From contig NZ_QJJK01000016.1 of the NCBI RefSeq assembly GCF_003201475.1, positions 109,754 to 141,811 on the forward strand: a stretch of 32,058 nt of DNA. Direction: 5' to 3'. Shown here piece by piece: positions 9,190 to 29,471 of this stretch (the stretch's first letter is position 1; every line of letters begins with the position of its first letter). A program made the translations under genes and the position numbers. This stretch comes from Chelatococcus asaccharovorans (lineage in GTDB: Bacteria; Pseudomonadota; Alphaproteobacteria; Rhizobiales; Beijerinckiaceae). Below the pieces are notes generated by a model. It saw only the letters and a program-made list of their open reading frames with translations. It was not told the origin of the DNA and made no database searches.

Positions 9190-9606
9190 TCAAACGAAAT
9201 GCCGCAAACTGCGGGCGAAGTTCGCGACATAGCGCTCCAGAGCCTGTTGCTTGCTCTTGTCTGCCAGTATCGGCACCTCGACCTTGATCGTCTTGAATCG
9301 AACCTCTTCCTCGTCCTGGCTGACCAGCTTCGGCGCCCGATTCGGATGCGCTCCCTGATAGAAAGTCATGAAAAGATGCTCCTCATCCGCTGTGAAGTGG
9401 CACAGCCGGAAAAGAGACGCCAAATGCTTGACCGGGATGGGGGTCGCGTCCGCCGGGTTGGTGATCTGCGAGATGAAGCTCTTGTGTGTGCTGAGTTCCT
9501 TCGCGAGCCGCAGGCGAAGGCCTGAGGGGTTGCGATCAATAATATTTCGCAACAGCGTCTTGTAGGAGGCGACATAATCGTCGCGCGAGAGCGGCTCGGG
9601 TGCCAT
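9190..9606 (-). CDS. Small HTH DNA-binding regulator (XRE-like)
   Basis: Protein of 138 residues. Residues ~28-50 (GLRLRLAKELSTHKSFISQITN) form a Cro/CI-type helix-turn-helix; the middle has KHLASLFRLCHFTADEEHLFMTFY, an alpha-helical segment as in XRE-like proteins; the charged tail QALERYVANFARSLRHFV may mediate dimerisation. It is the only evident regulator between 9 and 30 kb. Its own upstream region has GGTTTAG and CTAAACC in inverted orientation (9619-9656), and related sequences precede the other units of the block. The inference is that this protein is the local, autoregulated switch. The ATG has no strong ribosome site. The effector is unknown; there is no obvious small-molecule domain. 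Confidence 0.75.
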   Translation of the reverse strand: MAPEPLSRDDYVASYKTLLRNIIDRNPSGLRLRLAKELSTHKSFISQITNPADATPIPVKHLASLFRLCHFTADEEHLFMTFYQGAHPNRAPKLVSQDEEEVRFKTIKVEVPILADKSKQQALERYVANFARSLRHFV

Positions 9607-9618
9607 GGAATCGTCTCT

Positions 9619-9656
9619 GGTTTAGCGAGCCATTGGGGCCTCTTTCTTACTAAACC
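9619..9656. promoter_or_regulatory. Candidate operator: inverted GGTTTAG / CTAAACC
   Basis: GGTTTAG (9619-9625) and CTAAACC (9650-9656) are exact inverted copies with 24 bases between them, immediately upstream of the HTH regulator's start at 9606. Centre-to-centre spacing is 31 bp, about three helical turns. The core matches the GTTTAG element found upstream of the other transcription units of this block, so this may be an autoregulatory site. Confidence 0.6.
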
Positions 9657-9776
9657 TTGTAGCCTCGTTCTTCAACCGAGAGGGAGCATCTTGCCAGTCA
9701 GGGCCGTGTCCGTATCCGACAATGCTGTGGGCGATGGGCACGGACCACGCAACGCCTGCAAACGGGAGGAGGAACG

Positions 9777-9968: not shown

Positions 9969-9986
9969 AAGTTTGCTTCGGGAACT

Positions 9987-10001
9987 AAACTCAGTTTAGA
10001 A
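9987..10001. promoter_or_regulatory. Candidate operator: perfect palindrome CTAAACT-C-AGTTTAG
   Basis: A 15-bp palindrome with 7-bp perfect arms around a single central base. It overlaps a possible -10 box TAGAAT (9999-10004), itself 18 bp from a weak -35 TTGCTT (9975-9980). This would be the promoter of the MBL-dhaL-dhaM-HPr/EI-dhaK operon. It is the most symmetrical copy of the motif seen in the block; overlap with the -10 box would fit repression. Confidence 0.65.
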
Positions 10002-10211: not shown

Positions 10212-11066
10212 TTGAAGCTCGATCTCGGCGGAGCTCAAATCCATGTGGTGTCGGACGGAGACATGCATCTCGGCCCTGCCGTGGGCCAGTATCTGAACGC
10301 GCCGGACGAGGATGTCCTCGAGAGCGTCGGGATGGGCGGATGCACGGATGGGCAGTTCGTCATCGCGCAGAACTGCCTCGTCGTTTCCCGGGGTGAGCGC
10401 CTGGTCCTGATCGATACGGGCGTGGGTCCCAATCCACTGTTCGGCCCGACGACGGGAAAGCTCCTGGCCAATCTCGCGGCGGCCGGAATAGACCGGGCAA
10501 AGATTACCGATGTCATACTGACGCATCCCCATCTCGACCATGCAGGCGGGGTCGCCATCGCGGAGGGCCACCCGGCTTTTCCGAAGGCGCCTATCTATGT
10601 GAATGCGGCCGATTTTGACTTCTGGACCGATATCTCTTCGGCCCCCTCGGGCTCCTTCCTTGCGCCGATTATCCGCGGCGTCGGCGATGCGCTGCTGCCG
10701 TTGCGAGAACGGATCGTATTCTACCAGCCAGGCGAAGAGCTCGTGCCTGGCTTTACCGCGGTGAGCGCGCCCGGCCACACCACGCATCACTGCGCGATCG
10801 CCATTCATGACGACGATCAGGTCGCGCTGATCTCCGGTGATGCCGTGCATCACCCGATGCAGGTCGCGAACCCGCAATGGGAGTTCCATGGCGATGCGGA
10901 TGGCGTGCTCGCCGCCCGAACGCGAGCCCGATTGTTTGACATGGCGGCGACCGACAATATGGTCTTCCTCGCGTTTCACTTTGCCTATCCGGGGGTAGGC
11001 CGCATCGCGCGGCACAGGAACTCCTACACTTTCAACCCCGTACAAGCCCGTGTCGCAGCACTCTGA
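10212..11066 (+). CDS. MBL-fold metallo-hydrolase
   Basis: Metallo-beta-lactamase-fold enzyme of about 284 residues. The metal-binding HxHxDH motif is His105-Pro-His107-Leu-Asp109-His110 (LTHPHLDHAGG); further ligands appear in SAPGHTTHHC, ISGDAVHH and LAFHFAYPG. The fold suits hydrolysis of a lactone or (thio)ester; relatives include N-acyl-homoserine lactonase-like proteins, but the substrate is not determinable. The start chosen is TTG at 10212, because GGGAGAGG lies just upstream and protein-like sequence (LKLDLGGAQIHVVSDGDMHL) begins there; the frame is open to 10035 but that part is not convincing. It overlaps the dhaL start by 17 bp and heads the DHA-kinase operon, hinting that it generates or clears a precursor of the kinase substrate. 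Confidence 0.85.
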   Translation: MKLDLGGAQIHVVSDGDMHLGPAVGQYLNAPDEDVLESVGMGGCTDGQFVIAQNCLVVSRGERLVLIDTGVGPNPLFGPTTGKLLANLAAAGIDRAKITDVILTHPHLDHAGGVAIAEGHPAFPKAPIYVNAADFDFWTDISSAPSGSFLAPIIRGVGDALLPLRERIVFYQPGEELVPGFTAVSAPGHTTHHCAIAIHDDDQVALISGDAVHHPMQVANPQWEFHGDADGVLAARTRARLFDMAATDNMVFLAFHFAYPGVGRIARHRNSYTFNPVQARVAAL

Positions 11067-11694
11067 CGCTTCCTTCCCGGATCTTTCGGCGGCGATCAAA
11101 AGGCGGCTGATCGAGCACGTTTGCGAAACGATCGAAGAGCATGCCGAGGAGCTGACGCGCCTCGACAAGGCCGTCGGCGACGGAGACCACGGGATCAACA
11201 TGTCTCGTGGCGTCCGCGCGATCTCCGCGGAAACGGAGCAGCTTGTTCAGCTTGAAACGCCGAGAATATTGCAGCGTGTCGGAATGATCCTGGTCATGAA
11301 TATCGGCGGCGCAGCCGGGCCGATTTTCGGCACGTTCTTCATGACGCTCGCCAAGGACTTCAGAACAGCGCGGGACCAAGCGTCGCTCGCGCAGATATTC
11401 GAGGCAGGCGTCGAGAGCGTTTGCGCTCGCGGAAAATCCCGCCCGGGCCAGAAGACGGTCATCGACGTACTGGCTCCGCTGAGCGGCTTGCTGCTCTCGG
11501 GTAAGCCGCTCAGCCTCGCCGCCTTTTCCGAGGCCGCATCGGCCGCGGCCGAGGCGACGATCCCACTGCAGGCGCAAAGGGGGCGGGCGTCCTTTCTCGG
11601 AGCACGCTCCATTGGCCATCTGGATCCCGGCGCACGCTCAGCCGAACTGATGATAAAGGCGGTCTGCTCGGTCCTTGCAAAGGAATGCAAATGA
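11050..11694 (+). CDS. dhaL: Dihydroxyacetone kinase subunit DhaL (ADP-binding)
   Basis: A 214-residue DAK2 domain, the nucleotide-binding subunit of PTS-dependent dihydroxyacetone kinase, which carries tightly bound ADP/ATP as a cofactor rephosphorylated by DhaM. The Mg-nucleotide Asp cluster is present: Asp39, Asp44 and Asp46 in LTRLDKAVGDGDHGINMSRG. The C-terminal half has the GRASFLGARSIGHLDPGA signature. GTG at 11050 is the start and overlaps the MBL gene; the stop overlaps the EIIA gene as ATGA. The order dhaL, dhaM, HPr-EI, dhaK differs from the E. coli order dhaK-dhaL-dhaM. Confidence 0.93.
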   Translation: MSQHSDASFPDLSAAIKRRLIEHVCETIEEHAEELTRLDKAVGDGDHGINMSRGVRAISAETEQLVQLETPRILQRVGMILVMNIGGAAGPIFGTFFMTLAKDFRTARDQASLAQIFEAGVESVCARGKSRPGQKTVIDVLAPLSGLLLSGKPLSLAAFSEAASAAAEATIPLQAQRGRASFLGARSIGHLDPGARSAELMIKAVCSVLAKECK

Positions 11695-12077
11695 CGAATG
11701 TAAGCATCGTGCTGGTGTCCCACTCAGCCAAGCTGGCTGAAGGAATTCGCGAAATGATACATCAGATGGTCGGCGACAATGTGCAGGTTGCGGCAGTGGG
11801 AGGCAATCTGGTCGGCGATCTGGGAACCGATCCTAAGCGCATCCGGGGAGGCATCGAGGAGGTCTGGAGCGATGCCGGCGTGGCGATCCTCGTCGATCTG
11901 GGGGGAGCGGAAATGAACTCCGAGATGGCGATCGAAGCCCTTGAGCCGAGGCGGCGCTCCAAGGTCGTGATCTGCGATGCCCCGATCGTAGAGGGGGCCG
12001 TGGTGGCAGCGACCGAGGCATCGGGCGGTTCATCTCTGGCCGTGGTCCGTGCGACGGCCGAGGCCGTGGGACGCTGA
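11691..12077 (+). CDS. dhaM: DhaM-type EIIA phosphotransferase subunit
   Basis: A 128-residue EIIA domain of the mannose class as found in DhaM. The N-terminus NVSIVLVSHSAKLAEGI contains the expected phospho-accepting His11. The later segments VAAVGGN, GVAILVDLGGAEMNSEMAIE and ICDAPIVEGAVVAA match the family. Its role is to pass phosphate from HPr to the ADP bound on DhaL. ATG 11691, overlapping the dhaL stop as ATGA, is preferred over ATG 11685. In E. coli, DhaM is one polypeptide of EIIA, HPr and a partial EI; here EIIA is separate, with HPr-EI in the next gene. Confidence 0.9.
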   Translation: MTNVSIVLVSHSAKLAEGIREMIHQMVGDNVQVAAVGGNLVGDLGTDPKRIRGGIEEVWSDAGVAILVDLGGAEMNSEMAIEALEPRRRSKVVICDAPIVEGAVVAATEASGGSSLAVVRATAEAVGR

Positions 12078-12085
12078 GCGCTGTC

Positions 12086-14008
12086 ATGACATGTTATCGG
12101 CGAGGGTCGGTTCTCCTGACGAACGCAATCGGGCTGCATGCGCGTCCGAGCGTTCGCCTCGTGCAGATGGCGCGGCAGTTCGACGCCGATATCGAGATCG
12201 CGACGGACCCGAAGGGGCCGTGGATCGATGCTCGCAGCATCGTCAAGCTGATGCGGGTGAGGGCTCGGCGCGGCACCACGCTTCACATCCGAACGGCCGG
12301 GCCGGATGCTGCGCGCGCGCTGGCGTTGGTCCATTCATTCGCTGCAGGCGGCTTCGACGGACAGCCAGCCGAGCCGGCGGCGGGCGAGTTGATAATCATC
12401 GGCAAGTCCGCCTCGCCCGGGCGCGCGCATGGCCCGGTCCATGTATTGCGCTCCGCGCAGTCGTCGAGCCGAGCACGCAATGGAGATGGCCTGCAGGTCC
12501 TTCGGACGGCGATCGAGTCGGCAACGGCGCAATTGACCGAGCTCATGGCCCGGTCGCATGACGATGGGCTTCAGATCCTGAGCTTCCAACGCGAGTTCCT
12601 GCGTGACGAGACGCTCATGGGAGGTGCTGCGGCCTCCATCGCCGCCGGAAAGGATGCAGCGGACGCCTGGACCGAGGTGGTACAGGCCGAGATCGATGGC
12701 TATGAGCAGTCGGACGATGAGGATTTTTTTGCCAGAGCTGCCGATCTGAGGGATCTGAGCATTCGCGTGACGGCCTTGTTGAACGGGACGATGTCACCTG
12801 ACCCTGTGCCCCCTGGAAGCATCGTCTTTGCTGACGAGGTGCTGCCATCACAGTTTCTCTCCGTCGATTGGCGACAGGGGGGTGCCCTGGTTACCCGGCG
12901 CGGCAGTCCGCGCAGCCATGTCGCGCTTCTGGCCCGCTCTCGCGGCGTGCCGATGATCGTGCAGGCGGCGGGGCTGCCGGATAGGCCGGGCGAAACAGCA
13001 CTGGTTGATGGAAATAACGGAATCGTCGTCATCAATCCGGAGAGAAACCACGCACTGCCTGCCCAGGCAAAAGCAACGGCTGGCGCAGGCCGCATGCCCG
13101 CTCGTCCGACGGTGTGGGAGAATAGCACCGGTGGGCAGGATGAGTTCAGGTTGCTCATCAATGTCTCCGGTGCGGACGAACTTTCCGGGATCGACCCCGT
13201 GATCTGCGACGGGATAGGTCTCGTCCGCACCGAGTTCATGTTCATGGGCACGGCCCTGCCTTCGGAAGAGGAGCAGCTCAACGCATATTCCCTGATCCTG
13301 CGTTGGGCGAGGGGGCTGCCGGTCACGATCCGGACGCTGGACGCAGGCGGCGACAAGCCCGTCGCGGGCCTCTCCCTTGGCGGAGAAAGCAATCCCTTTC
13401 TCGGCCTGCGGGGTGTCCGATTGGCGCTGGCCAACAGAGATGTTTTTCGCGTTCAGCTTCGTGCGTTGCTGCGGGCGGCTGCCGTCGGCCCCCTGCGGGT
13501 CATGATCCCGATGGTGACCATGCCCTCCGAGCTCGAGGCTGTGCGAGAGCTTCTCCAGCAGGAATACGCTGCGCTGAGCAGCGAGGGCGTCGCTTGCGCG
13601 CCGGTTTCGCTCGGCATGATGGTGGAGGTTCCCGCGGCAGCGCTCACGATCAAGCGGTTCAATGCGGATTTTTACTCGATCGGGTCCAACGATCTCGTAC
13701 AGTATGTAACGGCCGCCGCGCGCGATAATGGCGCTGTCGGCGACGTCTATGACCCACTTAACGAAGCCGTGCTGCAAATTATAAGCTCCGTCGTTGAGTT
13801 CGGGCGTCAGTCGGGGCGCCCGGTCTCTCTTTGCGGCGATGCGGGCGCCGATCCGGCGGTTCTTCCGGCCCTTATCGCCACCGGCTTGCAGAGTTTTTCG
13901 GTCCCTGTCGACGCCGTGGCCGCCGTTCGCGCGGTTATCCGATCTGTCGCCGCAAGCCGGCAGACTCAAGTTCCACCGCAGGCTCACCCGACGGACAGCC
14001 GATCCTGA
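12086..14008 (+). CDS. HPr-enzyme I fusion (PEP-protein phosphotransferase)
   Basis: A 640-residue PTS protein. Residues 1-90 are HPr with phospho-His18 (TNAIGLHARPS). From ~102 onward is enzyme I: the phosphohistidine domain with His278 (GSPRSHVALLARSRGVPMIV), then the PEP-binding barrel with LVRTEFMFM, TLDAGGDKP, NPFLGLRGVRL, MMVEVPAAA, YSIGSNDLVQYV and the active-site Cys583 (SLCGDAGADP). Unlike E. coli DhaM, whose EI part is truncated, this EI appears complete and should autophosphorylate from PEP. It therefore probably makes the DHA-kinase relay independent of the genome's nitrogen PTS. It starts 8 bp after dhaM. The EI C-terminal tail after ~620 is unremarkable. Confidence 0.9.
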   Translation: MTCYRRGSVLLTNAIGLHARPSVRLVQMARQFDADIEIATDPKGPWIDARSIVKLMRVRARRGTTLHIRTAGPDAARALALVHSFAAGGFDGQPAEPAAGELIIIGKSASPGRAHGPVHVLRSAQSSSRARNGDGLQVLRTAIESATAQLTELMARSHDDGLQILSFQREFLRDETLMGGAAASIAAGKDAADAWTEVVQAEIDGYEQSDDEDFFARAADLRDLSIRVTALLNGTMSPDPVPPGSIVFADEVLPSQFLSVDWRQGGALVTRRGSPRSHVALLARSRGVPMIVQAAGLPDRPGETALVDGNNGIVVINPERNHALPAQAKATAGAGRMPARPTVWENSTGGQDEFRLLINVSGADELSGIDPVICDGIGLVRTEFMFMGTALPSEEEQLNAYSLILRWARGLPVTIRTLDAGGDKPVAGLSLGGESNPFLGLRGVRLALANRDVFRVQLRALLRAAAVGPLRVMIPMVTMPSELEAVRELLQQEYAALSSEGVACAPVSLGMMVEVPAAALTIKRFNADFYSIGSNDLVQYVTAAARDNGAVGDVYDPLNEAVLQIISSVVEFGRQSGRPVSLCGDAGADPAVLPALIATGLQSFSVPVDAVAAVRAVIRSVAASRQTQVPPQAHPTDSRS

Positions 14009-14042: not shown

Positions 14043-15032
14043 ATGAAGAAGCTCATCAATAGGCCCGAAGACATCGTCGCGGAGAGTCTCGAAGGGCTGG
14101 CGATCTCCCATTCCGACATCCTGGTGGTGCAACCCGGCGCCAGGTTCGTGCGCCGCCGTACGCTCGGCCGGGGCAAGGTCGCGCTTGTGTCCGGTGGAGG
14201 TTCGGGGCACGACCCTCTGCATGCAGGCTTTGTTGGCAAAGGTATGCTGGACGCGGCCTGCATGGGCGAGATCTTTACTTCGCCGACGCCGGACCAGATC
14301 GTCGCGGCCATAAATGCGGTCGAGACGGGGGCAGGCACGCTTCTCGTCGTCAAGAATTATGATGGCGACGTAATGAATTTCGATATGGCCGCCGAGATGT
14401 GCGACCATGCCCTGCGCAGCATTCTCGTCACCGATGATGTGTCGATCCCGATCGACGGGCGCTCGACAGGGGCGCGCGGCGTTGCCGGTACGCTCATCGT
14501 CGAGAAGATCCTCGGCGCAGCGGCAGAAATGGGCTGGCCGCTGGATCGCCTCATGATACTTGGCGAGCGCTTGGTGGCCCAGACCAAGTCGATGGGAGTG
14601 GCGCTCACCTCCTGCACGGTCCCTGCCAACCGGACGCCGACTTTCGAGCTGAACGACGATGAAATGGAACTCGGCGTCGGCATACATGGCGAAAGAGGAC
14701 AGACGCGCGTGAAGCTGGATAACGCCGACGCGATCGCCCGGCACTTGGTCTCGAAGGTGCTGCAATGCCTTCCGGTCTCCGAATCCGGCGATGCCCTTAT
14801 TCTCATCAACGGTTTCGGAGCGACGCCGCTGATCGAACTCAACCTCATGGCGCGCTCCGTCGATCAGGCGGTACGCCATGCAGGCCTTCGGCCGGTGCGC
14901 TATCTGGTCGGCAACTATGTCACGGCGCTGGACATGGCCGGCTGCTCGGTGACAATTACGCTCCTTGATGCTGAGATCGAGGCGCTATGGGATGCCCCAG
15001 TGCATACGTCCGCTTTGCGCTGGGGCTGCTGA
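14043..15032 (+). CDS. dhaK: Dihydroxyacetone kinase subunit DhaK (substrate-binding)
   Basis: A 329-residue DAK1 domain that holds dihydroxyacetone, or a related ketose, covalently as a hemiaminal on a histidine. That residue is His215 in GVGIHGERG. The catalytic pair His56 (GGGSGHDPLHAGF) and Asp109 (KNYDGDVMNFDMA) is also present. Two small deviations are Asp57 for the common Glu of GHEP, and Asp107 for the common Thr of KNYTGD; they may reflect a substrate other than DHA, such as a tetrulose. ATG 14043 matches the MKKLINRPEDIV start typical of the family, although the frame is open further upstream. Last gene of the relay operon; convergent with the TRAP binding-protein gene. The 85 bp between them show no clear terminator. 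Confidence 0.93.
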   Translation: MKKLINRPEDIVAESLEGLAISHSDILVVQPGARFVRRRTLGRGKVALVSGGGSGHDPLHAGFVGKGMLDAACMGEIFTSPTPDQIVAAINAVETGAGTLLVVKNYDGDVMNFDMAAEMCDHALRSILVTDDVSIPIDGRSTGARGVAGTLIVEKILGAAAEMGWPLDRLMILGERLVAQTKSMGVALTSCTVPANRTPTFELNDDEMELGVGIHGERGQTRVKLDNADAIARHLVSKVLQCLPVSESGDALILINGFGATPLIELNLMARSVDQAVRHAGLRPVRYLVGNYVTALDMAGCSVTITLLDAEIEALWDAPVHTSALRWGC

Positions 15033-15117: not shown

Positions 15118-16140
15118 CTACTTCTTCTGAGCCTCGGCCGCTGACTTCTCGACCGCCGCGACGAGCGCCGGGTTCAGCTGTGCCGCCCACTTCTGATAGA
15201 CGGCCTTCGTCGCCTCGCGAAAAGCGGCCCGCTCCTCCGGCGTGAGCTGGATCACTTGCGCGCCCGAGGCTTCGATTTCCTTCAGCACGTGATCGTCCGT
15301 CGCCGTGAGCCCGTCGCGCTTTAGCTGCCGCGTCTTCAGGCCCTGCTCAATCGCCGCGTCCTTGACGATCTTCTGGTCTTCCGGCGACCACTGTTCCCAG
15401 ACCTTCTTGTTGACCGAAAAGACCAGAGGCTCCCAGCAGTGGTTGAGCAAGGTCAGATATTTCTGCTTCAACGCAACGAGCTTGAAGATGCGAAAGCCTT
15501 CAACAGACTGGTCGGCGCCATCGATCGCGCCTGTGGCCAGGGCGGCCTGCATGTCTATCGCGCTCATCTGCGTTGGATTGGCGCCGAGCGATGTGTAGAA
15601 ATCGGTGAAGAGCGGCGAGCCGATGGCCCTCAGCTTCAGCCCCTTGAAATCCTCCGGTTTGCGGATGGGGAGCTTTGCATTGGCGACGATACGGAACGCG
15701 GAATCACCCCAGGCCAGAGGTTCGATGCCGAGGCTGCGAAGCCGATCGAAGATCATGGTGCCGCCCGGGCCGGCGACGACCGCATCGGCGGTGGCGTCGT
15801 CGGGGATCAGGAAGGGCAGGGAGAAGACATTGAATTCCTTGACCTGCGGCGACCAGCTGATGCCGGCGCCGATGCCCATATCGATGACACCTTCGCGAAG
15901 CGCTGCAAATTCGCGGGTCTGTTCGCCGCCGAGCAGCATCGCGCTCGGGTAGATTTTGATGTTTATGCGTCCGTTGGTCTTCTCGCGTACGGTGTCCGCC
16001 CAGCCGTTGGCCGCCACACCGAAAACGGAATCCATCGGCGTGACGATGGAGAGCTTGTATTCCGGCTTGTAGTCGGCGCCCTTCGCGCCGCCGGCGAGGG
16101 CCAGACTTGCGACCAGAGCGGCCGCTATCTTCTTCAGCAT
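15118..16140 (-). CDS. TRAP transporter substrate-binding protein (DctP family)
   Basis: Periplasmic protein of 340 residues. The signal peptide MLKKIAAALVASLALAGGAKGA covers about residues 1-22. The mature domain has NGRINIKIYPSAMLLGGEQTREF, LKLRAIGSPLFTDFY (conserved Arg that binds the ligand carboxylate) and SAIDMQAALATGAIDGADQS. TRAP binding proteins deliver organic acids to a DctQM permease, so the ligand should be a carboxylate such as an aldonate, hydroxy acid or keto acid. ATG 16140 has GGGAGG just upstream. The matching membrane subunits are at 18180-20068 on the other strand. A motif copy at 16208-16221 lies in its upstream region. Confidence 0.93.
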   Translation of the reverse strand: MLKKIAAALVASLALAGGAKGADYKPEYKLSIVTPMDSVFGVAANGWADTVREKTNGRINIKIYPSAMLLGGEQTREFAALREGVIDMGIGAGISWSPQVKEFNVFSLPFLIPDDATADAVVAGPGGTMIFDRLRSLGIEPLAWGDSAFRIVANAKLPIRKPEDFKGLKLRAIGSPLFTDFYTSLGANPTQMSAIDMQAALATGAIDGADQSVEGFRIFKLVALKQKYLTLLNHCWEPLVFSVNKKVWEQWSPEDQKIVKDAAIEQGLKTRQLKRDGLTATDDHVLKEIEASGAQVIQLTPEERAAFREATKAVYQKWAAQLNPALVAAVEKSAAEAQKK

Positions 16141-16207: not shown

Positions 16208-16221
16208 CTAGTTTAGTTTAG
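16208..16221. promoter_or_regulatory. Candidate operator: tandem AGTTTAG TTTAG
   Basis: CTAGTTTAGTTTAGT contains two head-to-tail copies of the TTTAG core, upstream of the TRAP binding-protein gene (start 16140) and just after the stop of the repeat-protein gene (16245). It is followed by a looser CTAGTAAA. Similar tandem copies occur at 17158 and 18084, supporting a shared regulator. Confidence 0.6.
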
Positions 16222-17149: not shown

Positions 17150-17198
17150 TTGACACGGTTTAGTTTACTATTATGTTGCGTTCAACAAAAAACTAAAC
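17150..17198. promoter_or_regulatory. Divergent promoter region with GTTTAGTTTA and ACTAAAC sites
   Basis: GTTTAGTTTA (17158-17167) and the inverted ACTAAAC (17192-17198) lie between the divergent repeat-protein and BKACE-1 genes. On the plus strand TTGACA (17150-17155) and TATGTT (17172-17177), 16 bp apart, form a plausible promoter with the first motif inside its spacer, an arrangement suited to repression. The spacing between the inverted motif centres (34 bp) is close to that upstream of the HTH regulator gene (31 bp). Confidence 0.6.
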
Positions 17199-17212
17199 TT
17201 CTGGGAGATTCA

Positions 17213-21015: not shown

Positions 21016-22752
21016 ATGAGCGAACAAGACGATCATCGCCCTGGGGGCTTTCGTTCCGCCGCCTGGTTCGGCCCTGACGACCGCAACGGCTTCATGCATC
21101 GGTCGTGGATGAAGAACCAGGGAACGCCGGACCACATGTTCGATGGCAGACCGGTCATCGGGATCTGCAATACCTGGTCGGAGCTGACGCCGTGCAACGG
21201 CCATTTCCGCCACATCGCCGAACATGTGAAGCGGGGCGTGCTCGAGGCGGGGGGCTTTCCGGTCGAGTTTCCGGTGATGTCGCTGGGCGAGACACTGCTG
21301 CGGCCGACCGCCATGCTCTTCCGCAACCTCGCCAGCATGGAGGTCGAGGAAACGATCCGCGCCAATCCGATCGACGGCGTGGTGCTGCTCTGCGGCTGCG
21401 ACAAGACAACGCCCGCGCTGGTCATGGGCGCGGCGAGCTGCGACCTGCCGACCATCGTCGTCTCCGGCGGGCCGATGCTCAACGGGAAGTATCGCGGGTC
21501 CGATATCGGCTCGGGAACGAATCTGTTCTCGATGAGCGAAGATGCGCGCGCGGGGCGGATGACGCGGCGCGAATTCATGGAGGCGGAATCCTGCATGTCG
21601 CGCTCGCCCGGCCATTGCATGACGATGGGCACGGCGTCGACCATGGCCAGCATGGTGGAAGCGCTGGGCCTGACGCTGCCCCAGAACGCCGCGATACCGG
21701 CGGTCGATTCGCGGCGGCTCGTGCTCGCGCAGGATTCCGGCCGGCGCATCGTCGAAATGGTCCGCGAGGATCTGCGCCTGTCGAAGATCCTCGATCGCCG
21801 CTCGTTCGAAAACGCCATCCGCGTCAACGCGGCGATCGGTGGCTCGACGAATGCGGTGATCCATCTGCTGGCCATGGCGGGCCGGTGCGAGATCGCGCTG
21901 ACGCTGGACGACTTCGACAGGATCGGGCGCGAGGTTCCGCTTCTGGTCGATCTGATGCCGTCCGGGCGTTTCCTGATGGAGGACTTCTACTATGCCGGAG
22001 GCCTGCCGGTCGTGCTGCGCAGGCTCGGCGGCCTGCTGCACGGTGATGCGCGGACCGTCAGTGGCAAGGCGCTCGCCGAAACCTTCGCGGAAGCGCCGTG
22101 CTGGAACGACGAGGTGATCCGGCCACTCGAACGGCCGGTCCGCGAGAAGGCCGGTATCGCCGTGCTCCGCGGCAATCTCGCTCCGAACGGCGCGATCATC
22201 AAGCCGTCGGCTGCAAGCCCCGCGCTGCTTGTGCATCGGGGACGCGCGATCGTGTTCGAAGGACTATCGGACTTCAGGGCGAGGATCGACGATCCTGCGC
22301 TCGATGTCGATGAGAGCTCTGTGCTCGTGATGCGCGGCGTCGGCCTAAAGGGGCATCCCGGCATGCCGGAGGTCGGCAATATGCCGTTGCCGCGCAAACT
22401 CCTCGAGCGCGGCGTCAGGGACATGGTGCGCCTGTCGGACGCACGCATGAGCGGTACCGCCTATGGCACCGTGATCCTGCATGTCGCTCCCGAGGCGGCG
22501 GCGGGCGGACCGCTGGCGCTCGTGGAAACGGGAGACATGATCGCGATCGACGTGCCGAACGGCCGCCTTCATCTCGACGTGTCGGATGCGACGCTCGCCG
22601 CACGCCGGCAGCGGCGTGATGCTCCATCCGCTGCACCCGCGACGGGCTACGAGCGGCTTTATCTCCAGCACATCATGCAGCCGGACACGGGCGCGGACTT
22701 CGACTTCCTGGTCGGGCGGCGCGGCCCCGCCGTCGCAGACAACGCACATTAG
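21016..22752 (+). CDS. IlvD/Edd-family sugar-acid dehydratase
   Basis: A 578-residue dehydratase of the IlvD/Edd family. It resembles the aldonate (L-arabinonate/D-xylonate type) branch in length and in the N-terminal [21 protein letters not shown]. The Fe-S cysteines appear as Cys51 (GICNTWSEL), Cys128 ([16 protein letters not shown]) and Cys201 ([14 protein letters not shown]); [13 protein letters not shown] and [17 protein letters not shown] are also characteristic. It should convert an aldonate to a 2-keto-3-deoxy acid in the cytoplasm. ATG 21016 is chosen over TTG 20998. The next genes encode an acylating dehydrogenase and a 4-hydroxy-2-oxo-acid aldolase, so the keto-deoxy acid is probably cleaved to pyruvate plus an aldehyde. 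Confidence 0.9.
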
Positions 22753-22763: not shown

Positions 22764-23699
22764 ATGAGTAGAACAAAGGTCGCCATCATCGGCTCGGGCA
22801 ATATCGGCACCGACCTGATGATCAAGGTCATGCGACACAGCAAGGTCCTGGAAATGGGGGCACTGATCGGCGTCGATCCGGCCTCGGACGGACTTGCTCG
22901 CGCAAGGCGGCTCGGCGTCGCCACCAGCGCCGAAGGAATCGAGGGATTGCGCCGGCTGCCGGATTACGGGGCGATCGAGATCGTCTTCGACGCGACCTCC
23001 GCCAGTGCCCACCAGCGCCATGCGGAAATCCTCGCCAGGGACGGCAAGCAGGCGATCGACCTTACGCCGGCAGCGGTCGGCCCGCATGTCGTTCCGCCGG
23101 TTAATCTCGATGAGCATCTCGGCAGCGGGAACATCAACATGGTGACCTGCGGCGGGCAAGCCACCATCCCTATCGTCGCGGCCGTGAGCAGCGTCGCGCC
23201 CGTTCCCTACGCGGAGATCGTGGCTTCGGTCTCATCCAAATCCGCCGGGCCCGGCACCCGCGCCAATATCGACGAGTTCACCGAGACGACTTCCGAGGCG
23301 ATCCGGACAGTGGGCGGAGCGGCCCGGGGCAAGGCGATCATCGTCCTCAACCCCGCCGACCCGCCGATCATCATGCGCGATACCGTCTATTGCCTGGCGG
23401 AGACGGACGATCGCGAGGCGATCCGGCGGTCGATCCTCGAGATGGTCCGACGGGTGCAGGAATATGTACCCGGCTACCGGCTGAAGCAGGAGATCCAGTT
23501 CGAGGACATCCCGCATAATAACCCGATCCGCGTGCCGGGGACCACGGAGCTCAAGAGCGGCACCAAGGTAACCGTCTTCCTCGAGGTAGAGGGCGCGGCC
23601 CATTACCTGCCTGCCTATGCGGGCAATCTGGACATCATGACGGCTGCGGCCATGAGGGCCGCGGAACGGCTTGTCGAGCTTCGCGGCCAGGGAGCCTGA
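22764..23699 (+). CDS. Acylating acetaldehyde dehydrogenase-like protein (BphJ/DmpF family)
   Basis: A 311-residue CoA-acylating aldehyde dehydrogenase. The NAD fold [12 protein letters not shown] (9-20), the thioester-forming Cys129 ([12 protein letters not shown]) and [21 protein letters not shown] are all conserved. Classical members accept acetaldehyde channelled from the partner aldolase and make acetyl-CoA at the end of aromatic meta-cleavage pathways. Here no hydratase or dioxygenase is present and the upstream gene is a sugar-acid dehydratase, so the aldehyde may be hydroxylated (for example glycolaldehyde), giving a hydroxyacyl-CoA. That part is inference. Twelve bases separate it from the dehydratase stop; two separate it from the aldolase. 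Confidence 0.92.
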
Positions 23700-23701: not shown

Positions 23702-24715
23702 ATGACACCGCTTTATATCCAGGACGTCACGTTGCGCGACGGCATGCATGCCATCCGTCACCAATATGATCTCGACCAGGTTGTGACCATCGCCAGCGCG
23801 CTCGATGCGGCGAAGGTCGACGCGATCGAAATTGCCCATGGCGACGGGCTGGCGGGCTCGAGCTTCAATTACGGCTTCGGCCGGCAATCCGATATCGAAT
23901 GGATCGAGGCCGTCGCATCGGCGCTTTCCCACGCAAAGCTGACGACCCTGCTGGTTCCGGGCATAGGCACGCTGCACGACCTGAAGGAGGCGGCCCGCAG
24001 CGGCGTCCGATCCGTTCGCATCGCGACCCATTGCACCGAAGCGGATGTCAGCCGCCAGCATATCGAGGCGGCCCGGACCATGGGGCTCGACGTCTCCGGT
24101 TTTCTGATGATGGCCCATTCGCAGCCTGCCGCGGTGCTGGCCGGGCAGGCCAGGCTGATGGAAGCCTACGGCGCCCATTGCGTCTATGTCACCGATTCGG
24201 GCGGCGCTCTGACGATGGATGGTACCCGTGAGCGGGTGCGGGCGCTGCGGCAGGCGCTGCAGCCGGAAACCCAGGTCGGCATCCACGCTCATCACAACCT
24301 CTCGCTCGGCGTCGCCAACTCCATCGTCGCGGTCGAGGAGGGCGCCCATCGTGTCGACGGCTCGCTGGCCGGCATGGGGGCAGGGGCAGGCAACGCGCCG
24401 CTCGAAGTCTTCATCGCGGTGGCCGCGCGGCTGGGACTTCCGCATGGCTGCGATCTCTACGCCCTCATGGACGCTGCCGAGGATATCGTGCGCCCCATGC
24501 AGGATCGGCCCGTGCGCGTCGATCGCGAAACGCTGTCCCTCGGCTATGCCGGCGTCTATTCGAGCTTCCTCCGCCATGCAGAGACGGCAAGCCGGGCCTA
24601 CGACATCGATACGCGCAGCCTCCTCGTGGAGCTCGGCCGTCGCGGGATGGTTGGCGGACAGGAAGACATGATTGTCGATGTCGCGCTGGACCTGAAGAAG
24701 GCCACAGCGCGATAG
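23702..24715 (+). CDS. 4-hydroxy-2-oxovalerate aldolase-like protein (BphI/DmpG family)
   Basis: A 337-residue metal-dependent (DRE-TIM type) aldolase that cleaves 4-hydroxy-2-oxo acids into pyruvate and an aldehyde. Catalytic and metal residues are present: Arg12, Asp13 and His16 ([12 protein letters not shown]), and His195/His197 ([12 protein letters not shown]). The communication domain after ~285 is of normal length, so complex formation with the preceding dehydrogenase, with aldehyde channelling, is expected from the family. Together with the IlvD/Edd enzyme it forms a short dehydratase-aldolase-dehydrogenase route. It is the last gene of its operon; a promoter-like gap with an operator follows. 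Confidence 0.92.
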
Positions 24716-24754: not shown

Positions 24755-24766
24755 AGTTTAGTAAAC
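24755..24766. promoter_or_regulatory. Candidate operator: GTTTA-G-TAAAC palindrome
   Basis: AGTTTAGTAAAC contains an 11-bp palindrome with 5-bp arms (24756-24766), located in the 90-bp gap between the aldolase gene and the VOC gene (start 24806). It is the same core as the upstream copies and suggests that the VOC-SDR-DhaKL unit has its own promoter under the shared regulator. Confidence 0.6.
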
Positions 24767-24805: not shown

Positions 24806-25363
24806 ATGAGTCACTTTCTGGGGCCGACACGGCAGATCGGCTACGTCGTCAAGGACATCGACAAGGCGATCGACTACTGGCTGAACGTCATGGGCTGCGG
24901 GCCGATTTTCCACATCCGCTCCATGTTCATCCGCAATTTTCACTATCGTGGCGAGCCGAGCGACCCCGAGCTCAGCATCGCGCTGTGCATGAACGGCGAT
25001 CTTCAGATCGAGCTGATCCAGCAGAACAACGATGCGAAATCCGCCTTCCGGACGTTCCTGGACGATGGCCATGAGGGCGCGCAGCATCTCGCCTACTGGA
25101 CCACGAAGTTCGACGAGGATCTGGCACTTTGCGAAAGCCGCGGCCTGCAGATCGAGCAATATGGCCAGTCCGGCCAGCATGGCGCCGCCAATGAGCGGCT
25201 CGTCTATTTCTCCGCGCAAAGCCATCCCGGAACGATGATCGAACTCTCGGAGATATCGGGCGCCAAGGGGGTGTTCTTCCGCGAGATCGCGGAAGCGTCG
25301 CGCAACTGGGATGGCCGCGACCCCATCCGATATGTCAGCGGGCCATCGAGGAGCGGCGCATGA
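24806..25363 (+). CDS. VOC-superfamily protein (glyoxalase/epimerase-like)
   Basis: A 185-residue vicinal-oxygen-chelate protein. It opens RQIGYVVKDIDKAIDYWLNVMGCGPIF, the first beta-alpha-beta unit; the second module contains EGAQHLAYWTTKFDEDL and PGTMIELSEI, with His and Glu in the usual metal positions. Relatives include methylmalonyl-CoA epimerase-like and lactoylglutathione-lyase-like proteins, so epimerisation or isomerisation of a keto or CoA intermediate is plausible but not assigned. GGGAGGAAC precedes ATG 24806. Its stop overlaps the first SDR start (ATGA), making it part of a four-gene coupled string that leads to the DhaK-DhaL fusion. Confidence 0.85.
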   Translation: MSHFLGPTRQIGYVVKDIDKAIDYWLNVMGCGPIFHIRSMFIRNFHYRGEPSDPELSIALCMNGDLQIELIQQNNDAKSAFRTFLDDGHEGAQHLAYWTTKFDEDLALCESRGLQIEQYGQSGQHGAANERLVYFSAQSHPGTMIELSEISGAKGVFFREIAEASRNWDGRDPIRYVSGPSRSGA

Positions 25364-26124
25364 CCGGTATGTCGGGAAGAACGGCGATCGTCACGGGGGG
25401 AGCATCCGGCATCGGCCTCGCCACCGCGGCGGAGCTGTTGCGGCAGGGATGGCGCGTCGCCGTTTTCGGTCGCGATACGGGTGAGTTCGCGGAGGCCAGG
25501 GCGTGGCTGGACGCGTTCGGCCCGACGGAGTTTCATGCTGTGGACGTCGTCGACGAGGCCGCTGTCGCTGCAGCGGTGGCGGACGTCGCCCGCAATTCGG
25601 CGCCGCTGACCGGCTTGGTGAATTCCGCTGGAATCGGCCACAATCTGAAGCTCCTCGATACCAGCCTGGAGCTCTTCCGCACGACGCTTGACGTCAATCT
25701 GACCGGGAGCTTCCTGGTCTCGCGGGAGGCGGTCCGCCACATGAAGCGGGGGGCGATCGTGAACGTCTCCTCCGTCTCAGGCGTGCGCGGCAGTTCGGGC
25801 CGGGCCGCCTATGCGGCGTCCAAGGGCGGCGTCGTGGCCATGACGAAAGCCCTAGCCGTCGAGCTCGCCGCACGGGGAATCCGCGTGAACGCGGTCGCTC
25901 CCGGCCCTGTCGAAACGCCGTTGGTGACGCGGGTCCATACGCCCGAGACACGGCGGGCGCTGACGCAGGCCGTGCCGCAGCACCGGTATGGCCGGCCGGG
26001 CGAGCTCGCCTCGGTCATCGCCTTTCTGCTCGACGACGAGTTGGCGAGCTACGTCACGGGGCAACTGGTCGCCGTGGATGGCGGGCTGACTGCCAGCGCC
26101 GGATGGTCCGCGGAGGCCGCATGA
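25360..26124 (+). CDS. SDR-family oxidoreductase 1
   Basis: A 254-residue classical short-chain dehydrogenase. Motifs: TGGASGIG cofactor glycine loop (residues 12-19), NSAGIG (NNAG variant), catalytic Ser in VNVSSVSG and YAASK, then a C-terminal YVTGQLVAVDGGLT. It probably oxidises or reduces a hydroxyl of a sugar, polyol or hydroxy acid with NAD(P). Start and stop both overlap neighbouring genes by four bases. It is clearly different in sequence from SDR 2 and SDR 3, so the three may act on successive intermediates. Confidence 0.93.
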   Translation: MTGMSGRTAIVTGGASGIGLATAAELLRQGWRVAVFGRDTGEFAEARAWLDAFGPTEFHAVDVVDEAAVAAAVADVARNSAPLTGLVNSAGIGHNLKLLDTSLELFRTTLDVNLTGSFLVSREAVRHMKRGAIVNVSSVSGVRGSSGRAAYAASKGGVVAMTKALAVELAARGIRVNAVAPGPVETPLVTRVHTPETRRALTQAVPQHRYGRPGELASVIAFLLDDELASYVTGQLVAVDGGLTASAGWSAEAA

Positions 26125-26987
26125 TGAGAGATACTGCGGAAAAGGGCCGTCTCGCCGGCCGGGTGGCGCTCGTGGTGGGGGCGGGCTCGGTGGGGCCCGG
26201 ATGGGGCAACGGCAAGGCCACGGCGGTTGCGTTCGCACGCGAAGGCGCGCGCGTGCTCGCCGCCGATCGCAACCTGTCGGCCGCGATAGAGACGCGCGAC
26301 ATCATCCGGGGCGAGGGCGGCCTGTGCGAAGCCGTCGAAGCGGATGTCACCGATGCCGGGTCGATGGCCGCAATGGCGGCCGCTTGCGTCGAGGCCTTCG
26401 GCAGCATCGACATCCTGCACAACAATGTCGGGCTCGCGCAGGTCGGCGGCGTCACCGATACGGACCCTGCCGACTGGGACCGCATCCTGAAGGTCAATAT
26501 CACGGGGATGTTTCTCTCTTGCCGCGCGGTCGTGCCTCACATGGAGCGTCAGATCGAGACGGGCGGCTCCCCCTGCGCGATCGTGAATGTCGGCGCCATT
26601 GCAGGGCGTCGCTGGACGGGCGTTCCGATGTTGGCCTACGCTGTCTCGAAGGCGGGCGTCGAGGCGTTGACCCGTTCGATCGCCCTGCAATATGCGCGCG
26701 CCGGCATCCGTTGCAATTGTATCCTGCCGGGGCTGATGGACACTCCGCACGTCGTCGAGCCGCTCAAGAATCTCTACGGCGAGAACAGCCTGGAGCGCCT
26801 GCGGCAGGTCCGCAACAACCAGGCTCCCATGGGCTTCATGGGGACGGCATGGGATGTCGCGGCCGCAGCGGTCTATCTCGCTTCCGACGACGCGCGCTAC
26901 GTCAACGGCCATGCACTCGCGGTCGATGGCGGCCAGTCGGCTCAGACCTGGTCCCCGCTCTACGCGTCGCCCGGAGAACCGCAATGA
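26121..26987 (+). CDS. SDR-family oxidoreductase 2
   Basis: Short-chain dehydrogenase of about 288 residues. The cofactor loop is unusual and longer than standard: VVGAGSVGPGWGNGKATA instead of TGxxxGIG. HNNVG replaces NNAG, and YAVSK with the downstream NGHALAVDGGQS is normal. ATG 26121 overlaps the SDR 1 stop; ATG 26124 is about equally possible given the GGAGG at 26112-26116. The stop overlaps the SDR 3 start. The altered loop may affect cofactor preference. Substrate unknown. Confidence 0.92.
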   Translation: MMRDTAEKGRLAGRVALVVGAGSVGPGWGNGKATAVAFAREGARVLAADRNLSAAIETRDIIRGEGGLCEAVEADVTDAGSMAAMAAACVEAFGSIDILHNNVGLAQVGGVTDTDPADWDRILKVNITGMFLSCRAVVPHMERQIETGGSPCAIVNVGAIAGRRWTGVPMLAYAVSKAGVEALTRSIALQYARAGIRCNCILPGLMDTPHVVEPLKNLYGENSLERLRQVRNNQAPMGFMGTAWDVAAAAVYLASDDARYVNGHALAVDGGQSAQTWSPLYASPGEPQ

Positions 26988-27748
26988 CCGCACAGACGCC
27001 GTCCCAAGCAAAAATCGCCGTCGTGACAGGTGCTGGCTCGGGAATCGGGCGCTTGAGCGCCCTGGCCCTGCTCGATGCCGGTTGGGCCGTCACGCTGGTC
27101 GGCAGGCGGCGGTCCGCGCTCGAGGAGTCATTGTCCTTGAGCAAGGAAAGCGCAGGCTCGATCTGCGCTGCCGACATCACGGACGAGGCTACTGTCGATA
27201 CGCTGTTCGAGCAGGTGTTCGAGGCGCATGGCCGGCTCGACCTGCTCTTCAACAATGCCGGCATATTTTCCGGCTCCGTGCCCTTCGAGCAGACGGACGC
27301 CAGCGAATGGCGACGGATGATCGACGTCAACCTTACGGGCGCCTTTCTCTGCGCCCGGAGCGCGTTCCACCTGATGAAGCGGCAAGCGCCCTCTGGCGGC
27401 CGCATCATCAACAACGGCTCCGTCTCGGCGCATGTGCCGCGCCCGCGCGCTGCGGCCTATACCGCCTCGAAGCACGCCATCACCGGTCTTACCAAGGCGA
27501 TCGCGCTTGAAGGTCGTCCCTTCAACATCGCTTGCGGGCAGATCGACATCGGCAACGCCGCCACGGACATGACGGCGGGGGTCGCTGCCGGAATGCTGCA
27601 GGCGGATGGAGGCGTGCGTGCCGAGCCCGTGATGGATGCGAGCGAGGCCGTGCGCGCCATCCTCCACATGGCGAGCATGCCGCTCGGAGCTAACATTCCA
27701 TTCATGACCGTCATGGCGACGACGATGCCGCTCTATGGCCGCGGCTGA
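26984..27748 (+). CDS. SDR-family oxidoreductase 3
   Basis: A 254-residue classical SDR with VTGAGSGIGRLSALALL, FNNAGIF, NNGSVSAHVPRP and YTASKHAITGLTKA. The C-terminus lacks the usual VDGG motif and instead ends IPFMTVMATTMPLYGRG, as in a recognisable SDR subgroup annotated as glucose/ribitol-type dehydrogenases. ATG 26984 overlaps the SDR 2 stop as ATGA; the frame is open far upstream, but that part is out of frame with SDR 2 and is not a fusion. The DhaK-DhaL gene follows 16 bp later, so its product may be a ketose for that kinase. Confidence 0.92.
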   Translation: MTAQTPSQAKIAVVTGAGSGIGRLSALALLDAGWAVTLVGRRRSALEESLSLSKESAGSICAADITDEATVDTLFEQVFEAHGRLDLLFNNAGIFSGSVPFEQTDASEWRRMIDVNLTGAFLCARSAFHLMKRQAPSGGRIINNGSVSAHVPRPRAAAYTASKHAITGLTKAIALEGRPFNIACGQIDIGNAATDMTAGVAAGMLQADGGVRAEPVMDASEAVRAILHMASMPLGANIPFMTVMATTMPLYGRG

Positions 27749-27764
27749 TCGAGAGGGAAGACCC

Positions 27765-29471
27765 GTGAAGAAACTCGTCAACGATGTTCTGAACGTCGTT
27801 CCCGAATCCCTGGAAGGCTTTGCGCGGCTTCACCCCACGCTGGCGATCCTCGACGGCCACACCACCGTCGTGCGAGCCGACGTCGCGGCATTCCGGGCAA
27901 GCGGCAAGGTCGCGATACTCAGCGGCGGCGGCGCCGGCCACGAGCCGGCTCATGCCGGCTACGTCGGGCAGGGAATGCTGACCGCCGCCGTCTCCGGCGA
28001 TGTCTTCGCATCGCCCAGCACGGATGCCGTTCATGCCGCGCTGAAAGCCGTCGGCACGCCGGCCGGCGTGTTGATGATCGTCAAGAACTATACCGGGGAC
28101 AGGATCAATTTCGGGCTGGCTGCCGAGATGGCCCGGGCCGAAGGAATTCCGGTCGAGACCGTCGTGGTCGATGACGACGCCGCGCTCGGGAGCGCCGAGA
28201 TGACGGCGGGGCGACGTGGCATCGCCGGCACCGTGCTCGTTCACAAGATCGCGGGCGCTGCGGCAGAAGCGGGGATGCCTCTGCCCGAGGTCGCCGAGAA
28301 GGCGCGTCAGGCGGTCTCCCGGCTGTCGAGCATGGGTGTGGCGCTGACGCCTTGCGTCGTGCCGGCAGCGGGATCGGCCAATTTCGAGATCGGTCCGGAC
28401 GAGATCGAATTCGGCCTCGGAATTCACGGCGAGGCAGGCGTGTCGCGACAAGTGATTGCGTCATCACGGGTGATTGTGGGATCTCTGATCGAGAAGATCG
28501 TCGCGGACAAGGGCCTCGTCAGCGGCGACCGTGTCGTTCTGCTTGTCAACAATCTCGGCAGCACCCCGACGATGGAGCTCAATATCGTCGCTCGCGATAC
28601 GCTGGAGAGCCTGGCGGATCGCGGCATCGCGATCGATCGTGCCTATTGCGGCACCTTCCTGACGGCCATCGAGATGGCTGGAATCTCGCTCAGTGTCCTG
28701 AAGTCCGACGCCGCGACGCTCGCTGCCCTGGATGCGGGGACGGTGGCTCCGGGTTGGCTCGCGAATGGAAGCACCATAGCGCCGCCGGCGAGGTCTGCGG
28801 CGCGGATCGCCATCCCGCCAACATCCACAAAGACGGCTGAGGAGGACGGAACGGGGTCGGCCCCGCCGGCATTCCTGGATGCGATCCGGGCCGCTTGCGA
28901 GGCGTTGATCGCTGCCGAGGACGCGCTGACGGCGATGGACCAGAAGGTTGGTGACGGCGATATCGGCCGGTCTCTGGCGCAAGGTGCGGAACAGATCCTG
29001 AAATCGATGGAGGGTTTCGCAAAGCGATCTCCCAAGGCTGTCCTGATGGCGATTTCGGAGATTGTAAGGCGGTCCGTGGGTGGCACGTCCGGCCCTCTCT
29101 ATGCAGCCTTTGCGCTTGGCGCGGCCAACGCGCTGACAGACGATTTCTGCGCTTCGGAGCAACTTTCGGCGGCGTTCGAGAATGGGGTCAGATCCGTGTC
29201 AGCTCTGGGAGGCGCCCAGGAAGGGGATAGGACGATGGTCGACGCGCTTGTTCCTGCCGTCCGCGCCATTCGCGCCGCAAGCTCCGCCCCTGCGGGGCTG
29301 TTGGCCGCAGCCGTTGCAGCACGTCGTGGGGCAGCCGCCACGGCCCATATGGCGCCTCGCCGCGGCCGCTCCAGCTATCTGGGCGCAAGAGTCCTCGGCC
29401 ATGTCGATCCAGGCGCCGAGGCCGTCGCCATCTGGCTCGCCGCAGTTGCAGGACAGACATCGGCCGAGTGA
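27765..29471 (+). CDS. DhaK-DhaL fusion kinase (ATP-dependent dihydroxyacetone/ketose kinase)
   Basis: A 568-residue single-chain kinase. Residues 1-335 are DAK1, with substrate-binding His221 (FGLGIHGEAG), catalytic His59 (GGGAGHEPAHAG) and Asp112 (KNYTGDRINF). After a linker (~340-368) comes DAK2 with VGDGDIGRSLAQGA (Asp397, Asp399) and a C-terminal SSYLGARVLGHVDPGA. This is the ATP-dependent architecture (Citrobacter DhaK type), also used by L- and D-erythrulose kinases. It needs no PTS partner. GTG 27765, preceded by GAGAGGGA, is the start. The block therefore encodes two mechanistically different kinases of the same family. Last gene of the SDR operon. Confidence 0.93.
   Translation: MKKLVNDVLNVVPESLEGFARLHPTLAILDGHTTVVRADVAAFRASGKVAILSGGGAGHEPAHAGYVGQGMLTAAVSGDVFASPSTDAVHAALKAVGTPAGVLMIVKNYTGDRINFGLAAEMARAEGIPVETVVVDDDAALGSAEMTAGRRGIAGTVLVHKIAGAAAEAGMPLPEVAEKARQAVSRLSSMGVALTPCVVPAAGSANFEIGPDEIEFGLGIHGEAGVSRQVIASSRVIVGSLIEKIVADKGLVSGDRVVLLVNNLGSTPTMELNIVARDTLESLADRGIAIDRAYCGTFLTAIEMAGISLSVLKSDAATLAALDAGTVAPGWLANGSTIAPPARSAARIAIPPTSTKTAEEDGTGSAPPAFLDAIRAACEALIAAEDALTAMDQKVGDGDIGRSLAQGAEQILKSMEGFAKRSPKAVLMAISEIVRRSVGGTSGPLYAAFALGAANALTDDFCASEQLSAAFENGVRSVSALGGAQEGDRTMVDALVPAVRAIRAASSAPAGLLAAAVAARRGAAATAHMAPRRGRSSYLGARVLGHVDPGAEAVAIWLAAVAGQTSAE

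Follow-up and report, generated by a model that had tools for sequence, protein, structure and literature searches.

Catabolism of D-apiose and apionate passes through 3-oxo-isoapionate, according to the excerpted accounts of these routes (PMC6302742, PMC11747546), and the genes of the oxidative deoxyribonate pathway include, in the excerpt of its description (PMC6365646), those for a lactonase, a short-chain dehydrogenase/reductase (SDR) and a β-keto acid cleavage enzyme (BKACE). Here we describe a locus at 9.2-29.5 kb of a 32,058-nucleotide window from Chelatococcus asaccharovorans, the window being the whole stretch of DNA that was analyzed and the terminal 32 kb of contig C16 in a genome of 7.25 Mb. 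The interval contains about twenty intact genes in stop-free open frames, and a shared operator-like element makes a co-regulated hydroxy/sugar-acid regulon a well-supported prediction. Our tentative preference is for a variant 3-oxo-isoapionate-type regulon for the breakdown of a small hydroxy acid of sugar type; in it, a Dha-type kinase would act after decarboxylation and a dehydratase/BphI/BphJ branch would run in parallel.

Pfam and NCBIfam models place the stop-free frames as DhaL, DhaM, HPr-EI (EI, enzyme I), DhaK, the TRAP transporter proteins DctP, DctQ and DctM, an IlvD/Edd dehydratase, BphJ, BphI, a VOC protein, three SDRs and an ATP-type dihydroxyacetone (DHA) kinase family protein, called DAK below. 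Two further frames encode the BKACE-family proteins BKACE1 and BKACE2 (Table 1). The original prediction, made from the same DNA, had named intact genes for TRAP, two BKACEs, the dehydratase, the BphI/BphJ pair, SDRs and two DHA-type kinases, and every one is indeed an open frame. Absent from its title and reasoning were two other genes of the interval, P0001 and P0004. A single open reading frame of 515 amino acids at 26201-27748 was rejected, since its first half is a frame artefact and SDR2 and SDR3 lie in different frames.

The case for common control begins with the heptamer AGTTTAG, of which the window contains eight copies where 0.49 would be expected, a count reached in none of 100 shuffles. 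The longer pattern GTTTAGTWWAS has five matches (0.00 expected) at 16211, 17158, 18086, 18091 and 24756, every one of them in plus orientation; those at 18086 and 18091 overlap, so that five matches fall at four places. Across the whole genome there are six matches, five at promoters of the locus and one elsewhere. Because the pattern was derived from the window sites themselves, the weight falls on its near absence from the rest of the genome and not on the count. The reversed pattern, used as a control, gives 9 matches (4 + 5), indicating that the composition itself is not absent from the genome. Position 9985 is the sole place on either strand that matches the palindrome CTAAACTCAGTTTAG with at most three mismatches (0.07 expected).

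The element is common to five promoter regions. Behind the site at 9985 lies the lactonase-DhaLM-HPr/EI-DhaK unit, behind 16211 dctP, behind 18086/18091 the dctQM-BKACE2-ilvD-bphJ-bphI unit, and behind 24756 the VOC-SDR1-SDR2-SDR3-DAK unit, while P0001 and BKACE1 diverge from the sites at 17158/17193. Operator-like sites had been predicted for four units; the sites stand, being near-exclusive to the locus, but the number of promoter regions is five. The sixth genomic match, at C13:58329 (position 9830 of the retrieved locus L052), lies about 260 bases from each flanking gene and was taken as chance; the genes flanking it have no evident link to the pathway.

As to whether the genes travel together, which the original prediction would lead one to expect, the answer is divided. 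The full set is unique within our sample, but sub-sets recur: TRAP with P0001 (5 of 13 P0001 loci), sometimes joined by SDR2; P0001 with SDR2 (4 of 13); and BKACE2 with BphI and BphJ on one plasmid. A common inducer of the units, also predicted, gains indirect support from the shared operator. The plasmid is Rhizorhabdus wittichii pSWIT02 (L034, 9213-12891), where BphJ (68%), BphI (75%) and a BKACE2 relative (59%) lie beside a 4-oxalocrotonate decarboxylase gene, a grouping seen in one of the nine BKACE2 loci opened. When the interval DNA was compared with plasmids, 57 records matched and none covered 80%. Among the literature matches listed, we recognized no description of the full gene set in titles and abstract openings.

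Near-exclusive operators at all five promoter regions and tight spacing of genes inside units speak against a patchwork, in which two or more modules (dehydratase-BphIJ, SDR-VOC-DAK and DHA kinase) would sit under one regulator and serve several substrates. We consider this doubtful, yet the components do keep different partners in other genomes. The relatives of BphI and BphJ that Tistrella and Aminobacter plasmids carry belong to clusters of aromatic type, and the grouping on pSWIT02 likewise counts in favor of a patchwork. At E 1e-40, BKACE1 is found in 7 of 297 genomes of the order, its own included, and in no other sampled member of its own family, and a scan of genome contigs with BKACE1 yielded one distant relative only, from a metagenome-assembled genome. 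BKACE2, at 1e-60, is found in its own genome alone among 289 genomes of the class.

Several neighborhoods point instead toward 3-oxo-isoapionate. Relatives of the VOC protein (46-50%; 3 of 65 records opened) are accompanied by TRAP genes and a DUF1537 kinase in all three loci and by a RuBisCO-like gene in two, and one of these loci also carries SDR2 at 51%. In one genome (G013), P0001, SDR2 and a relative of SDR1 (42%) adjoin genes for a RuBisCO-like protein and an OiaK-like kinase, and a haloarchaeal plasmid (L023) likewise has P0001 with such genes. In Rhizobium, the cluster that holds a BKACE1 relative includes an OiaX scoring above the curated cut-off. The other RuBisCO-like proteins and kinases that we scanned match the OiaX and OiaK models best but score below cut-off, and hence those clusters are relatives of the 3-oxo-isoapionate pathway and not proven members. 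OiaX, a RuBisCO-like decarboxylase, has no match in the genome under study, and no OiaK-type kinase was found at the locus. On the transport side, the nearest solved relative of DctP is 4p8b, which we take to have been solved with 2-acetolactate; the carbon skeleton of 3-oxo-isoapionate is that of acetolactate, bearing two further hydroxyls. In the excerpted survey of TRAP ligands (PMC5812351), 2-acetolactate and pantoate/D-erythronate are among those listed. At 1e-80, DctP occurs in 14 of 299 genomes of the phylum, its own included, and none of the 9 opened among the 13 others has P0001.

One branch of D-apiose/apionate catabolism uses a Dha-type kinase for L-erythrulose. Starting from the observed genes, open frames, near-exclusive operator and recurrent neighborhoods, we assign every reaction, substrate and position in the order below by family and context. 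The TRAP system would import a C4-C6, possibly branched, aldonate, which SDR2, perhaps with SDR1 and SDR3, would oxidize to a 2-hydroxy-3-oxo acid. VOC and P0001 may then epimerize, isomerize or decarboxylate this acid. Its decarboxylation would leave a ketose (erythrulose or dihydroxyacetone) to be phosphorylated by DAK or by the phosphoenolpyruvate (PEP)-fed DhaKLM and passed to central metabolism, such that a Dha-type kinase would replace the DUF1537 kinase and RuBisCO-like decarboxylase. In parallel, the dehydratase would form a 2-keto-3-deoxy acid, BphI would split it into pyruvate and a hydroxyaldehyde, and BphJ would convert the aldehyde to a hydroxyacyl-CoA. BKACE1 and BKACE2 might act on side products or a related acid. 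The earlier proposal of an imported acid split two ways gains partial support, and a Dha-type kinase could plausibly trap the ketose. Readings of the locus as a tetronate or an epoxysuccinate system were set aside because partner genes are lacking.

P0001 is a duplicated protein of an unnamed family. Its two halves are 41% identical, and it has no significant Pfam or NCBIfam match of its own. Among 14 aligned members of the family, 12 match DUF1805 with E values of 1 or below (2.6e-7 for the best) and 10 match IMS (best 1.2e-7); P0001 itself matches IMS only, at E 0.13. No relatives were found in viral contigs, and the matches from a PDB profile search with the family, mainly DNA polymerase IV fragments (best E 0.19), were taken as chance.

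P0001 is present in 14 of 100 relatives, its own genome included, and all 13 others were opened. DctP, DctQ and DctM of the window type lie at five of the 13 loci, and SDR2 at 45% or more at four, two of which are among the five bearing TRAP. A thiamine diphosphate (ThDP)-dependent enzyme of acetolactate-synthase type, at least 66% identical to a reference taken from one of the loci (L090), is present at seven. The genes for E1 alpha and beta were found at seven of the 13 loci, L090 serving as reference here too. E1-like genes (42-51%) are also found at 5 of 10 BKACE1 loci, which makes E1 an unspecific partner. One locus (L093, itself the reference for both) combines a RuBisCO-like gene and a kinase resembling OiaK. 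Four loci (L094, L095, L096, L097) have none of the TRAP, SDR2, ThDP, E1 or RuBisCO-like/kinase partners at these thresholds; L096, whose contig measures 6.5 kb, shows a ThDP match at 31%. In the 43 control loci fetched for other genes, P0001 was found in none and the ThDP enzyme at 60% or more in none; the P0001 matches of L093, L094 and L095 cover less than half of the query and were removed by the coverage rule, and half-length copies would escape in the controls too. One genome of the same genus (G003) carries P0001, the ThDP enzyme, DctPQM and SDR2 together.

The pairing of the ThDP enzyme with P0001 forms a recurring cluster in its own right (L054, L057, L058, L088, L089, L090, L091), with E1 alpha/beta in 6 of 7 and window-type DctPQM in 5 of 7. 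The ThDP enzyme that was scanned, from L090, scores below NCBIfam cut-offs.

The dehydratase carries SGTA at position 485 of its 584-amino-acid frame, as well as a C-terminal His, and the excerpted text of PMC9314677 gives both as markers of the sugar-acid dehydratases (SADHT) within IlvD/Edd. Against the L-arabinonate dehydratase model it scores 869.9, slightly below the cut-off of 882, and its nearest solved relatives are 8ej0 (857 bits) and L-arabinonate dehydratases. By both markers the enzyme fits the SADHT class, and sugar-acid activity is predicted. BphI and BphJ are encoded by adjacent genes, both pass their NCBIfam equivalog cut-offs, and no aromatic meta-pathway gene was identified beside them in the window by the Pfam and NCBIfam scans. 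The earlier idea that BphI and BphJ split the dehydratase product fits these markers, the reaction itself being a prediction. These same observations would suit a linear sugar acid, with a pentonate or hexonate dehydrated, BphI/BphJ yielding pyruvate and glycolyl- or glyceryl-CoA, and a second branch delivering a ketose to the kinases. Such a route is possible but somewhat improbable, as it leaves P0001, VOC and the CESH-like BKACE1 (CESH, cis-epoxysuccinate hydrolase) unexplained, and the DctP relatives near P0001 accompany acetolactate-synthase-like enzymes.

At the kinase end, the models for a PEP-dependent DHA kinase are passed by DhaK, DhaL, DhaM and HPr, and the Pfam domains of EI are present; the EI model TIGR01417 gives 332.3, just below 341.7. 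At 1e-140, DAK occurs in 11 of 297 genomes of the order, its own included. Six of the 10 other loci were opened, none with VOC, IlvD, BphI/J, BKACE or P0001 and one with a TRAP of a different type. Elsewhere in the own genome, about 24 kb of C12 (232644-256829; L063, L064) hold two pairs of lactonase-like and BKACE genes together with a further DAK of 49% identity.

P0004, for which Pfam gives nothing significant, has relatives in 24 plasmid records; these lie between the EI and DhaK genes in all three regions opened, which places P0004 with the kinase set. It is the only candidate regulator gene that we noticed in the interval, and may be a regulator or a partner of the DHA-kinase set. A second copy exists in the own genome (33% identity), and AGTTTAG, searched on both strands of the three plasmid regions, is absent from two and matches once in the third; nothing therefore ties P0004 to the operator. 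The P0004-like proteins of these regions, on Phyllobacterium, Rhizobium and Microvirga plasmids (L083, L084, L085), are annotated as hypothetical.

A number of observations weigh against the 3-oxo-isoapionate-type reading. First, as one of the two strongest points, P0001 is commoner beside an acetolactate-synthase-like enzyme than beside sugar-acid genes: the ThDP partner is found in 7 of 13 P0001 genomes, 6 of these 7 with E1, and is absent from the window. With such a partner, P0001 need not imply a sugar acid. Second, among P0001 plasmid loci (5 of 13 records opened), none has a TRAP of this type; one, from a haloarchaeon (L023), has RuBisCO-like and kinase genes, and the other four have CoA-, aromatic- or plasmid-maintenance genes. 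Third, AlphaFold leaves the fold of P0001 unmodelled (mean pLDDT 35.6 and 42.9). Fourth, no decarboxylase was identified at the locus, the full gene set occurs in no other genome sampled, and the DAK relatives lie mostly near ABC transporters and not near this TRAP. Finally, as the other of the two strongest points, linear acids are what the dehydratase class is known to act on, and PuDHT, a member of this class, is reported in the excerpted PMC9314677 as inactive on the branched acid 2,3-dihydroxyisovalerate (DHIV), which argues against a branched substrate for the dehydratase branch. A bolder version of the 3-oxo-isoapionate-type reading is unlikely: P0001 would found an unrecognized family of 2-hydroxy-3-oxo-acid enzymes, and the locus would be a RuBisCO-like-free branch of branched sugar-acid catabolism, with decarboxylation before phosphorylation, and the dehydratase, BphI and BphJ would split the same acid by a CoA-forming route.

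Membership of BKACE1 and BKACE2 in the BKACE family agrees with the original prediction, but neither looks like an ordinary BKACE. BKACE1 is closer to the CESH structure 5zmu (214 bits; 40.6% identity over 281 aligned positions) than to Kce (2y7d, 76 bits), and has GLGD in place of the GLED metal-Glu motif of BKACE. In a register that assumes R11 and E14 to align, it is like CESH[D] in R11, the metal ligand Glu14, both metal His residues (an HxH motif, with His numbers inferred) and D251. It is unlike CESH[D] at D115, replaced by Glu, and E190, replaced by Val, the two residues described as catalytic in the excerpt of PMC6429283. From these residues BKACE1 is not a normal BKACE, nor is it proven to be an epoxide hydrolase. 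BKACE2 keeps the metal Glu and has Ala at the first metal His, and so departs from the His-x-His plus Glu arrangement, whose positions we take from Kce. Its relatives at 55-61% have Ala in all 8 aligned, of 13 such plasmid records, whereas a 30% relative has His, and BKACE2 thus belongs to a subfamily with Ala at this position.

The CESH likeness of BKACE1 and the lost metal His of BKACE2 weaken the earlier route built on two BKACEs. They also count against a deoxyribonate-type route, in which an SDR would oxidize the substrate to a 3-keto acid for BKACE cleavage with acetyl-CoA, with a lactonase upstream. The locus shares an SDR, BKACE-family proteins and a lactonase-like gene with the oxidative pathway as excerpted from PMC6365646, and the own genome has two further lactonase-like/BKACE pairs. 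Its BKACE metal site is altered, however, and the dehydratase, BphI/J and the kinases are additional and go unexplained, making this route very unlikely.

Table 1. Coordinates in the window of the genes and operator-like sites of the locus.
Feature	Coordinates	Strand	Basis
P0004, 138 amino acids, helix-turn-helix-like (by eye)	9190..9606	-	Third-codon-position GC (GC3) pattern, translation
Operator-like palindrome CTAAACTCAGTTTAG upstream of unit 1	9985..9999	.	Pattern search
Metallo-beta-lactamase-fold, lactonase-like, heads first unit	10212..11066	+	AidB-like 121.5 bits, below cut-off 360; start by eye
DhaL	11050..11694	+	TIGR02365 204.8 bits, cut-off 138.3
DhaM EIIA-man domain	11691..12077	+	TIGR02364 134.0, cut-off 98.25; PF03610
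HPr-EI fusion	12086..14008	+	PF00381, PF00391, PF02896, PF05524
DhaK	14043..15032	+	TIGR02363 420.8, cut-off 406.25
TRAP solute-binding protein DctP	15118..16140	-	PF03480; nearest solved relative 4p8b, 339 bits
Operator-like site upstream of dctP	16211..16221	+	GTTTAGTWWAS
P0001, duplicated, unnamed family; between DctP and BKACE1	16245..17090	-	Start by eye, frame open to 17156
Operator-like sites between P0001 and BKACE1	17158..17199	.	GTTTAGTWWAS, AGTTTAG
BKACE1, BKACE/CESH superfamily, CESH-like metal site	17213..18091	+	PF05853 174 bits; start by eye, frame open from 17150
Pair of overlapping operator-like sites, upstream of dctQ	18086..18101	+	GTTTAGTWWAS
TRAP small permease DctQ	18180..18791	+	PF04290
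TRAP large permease DctM	18788..20068	+	PF06808; TIGR00786 317.7, cut-off 268.45
BKACE2, BKACE family, without first metal His	20087..21004	+	PF05853 257.5 bits, cut-off 24.8; alignment
IlvD/Edd dehydratase, sugar-acid class markers	21016..22752	+	PRK06131 924.6, cut-off 539
BphJ-type acylating aldehyde dehydrogenase	22764..23699	+	TIGR03215 466.9, cut-off 282.25
BphI-type 4-hydroxy-2-oxoacid aldolase	23702..24715	+	TIGR03217 564.5, cut-off 286; 1nvm 529 bits
Operator-like site upstream of VOC	24756..24766	+	GTTTAGTWWAS
VOC-fold protein, weakly methylmalonyl-CoA-epimerase-like	24806..25363	+	PF13669; TIGR03081 34.6, below cut-off 114.95
SDR1	25360..26124	+	PF13561
SDR2	26103..26987	+	PF13561
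SDR3	26999..27748	+	PF00106
ATP-type dihydroxyacetone kinase family protein (DAK)	27735..29471	+	PRK14479 587.1, cut-off 492; TIGR02361 530.6, below 574.95

Three open frames of the window outside the interval were also noted. A 580-amino-acid frame on the minus strand (1420-3162) is an IclR regulator, with its helix-turn-helix and C-terminal domains, fused to an SMP-30/gluconolactonase domain, with a gene resembling UxuA on one side and an ABC transporter/enolase-superfamily operon on the other. A short plus-strand frame (8598-9029) is, by eye, the putative start of an interrupted GMC-type oxidoreductase, and a minus-strand frame of about 237 amino acids (30885-31598) has no Pfam or NCBIfam match.

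The locus is of interest as a compact regulon, with a single operator sequence, a single transporter and some twenty genes, and P0001 as a nameless family that accompanies TRAP transporters, an SDR and enzymes resembling acetolactate synthase in a number of the order's genomes. Identifying the ligand of the binding protein could throw light on several unassigned clusters together.

Three known systems lend themselves to comparison. Rhizobial DAK-dhaL-dhaM-HPr-EI-P0004-dhaK operons resemble the locus in having a PEP-fed kinase set and P0004 beside an ATP-type DAK (41-43% to the DAK of the window). They adjoin ABC transporters, whereas at our locus P0004 runs divergently, HPr is fused to EI and the operon opens with a lactonase-like gene. 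With the Dahms-type non-phosphorylative oxidation of pentoses, as excerpted in PMC9314677, the locus shares the dehydratase class markers, but its aldolase is a BphI coupled to an acylating dehydrogenase and would give an acyl-CoA. If BphI and BphJ accept a sugar-acid aldehyde, this would be a channelling pair used outside aromatic breakdown. With the 3-oxo-isoapionate route the likeness lies in P0001, SDR2, VOC and BKACE1, relatives of which turn up repeatedly in clusters that also hold OiaK-like kinases and OiaX-like proteins; in place of OiaX and an OiaK-type kinase, the locus has Dha-type kinases and the dehydratase, BphI and BphJ.

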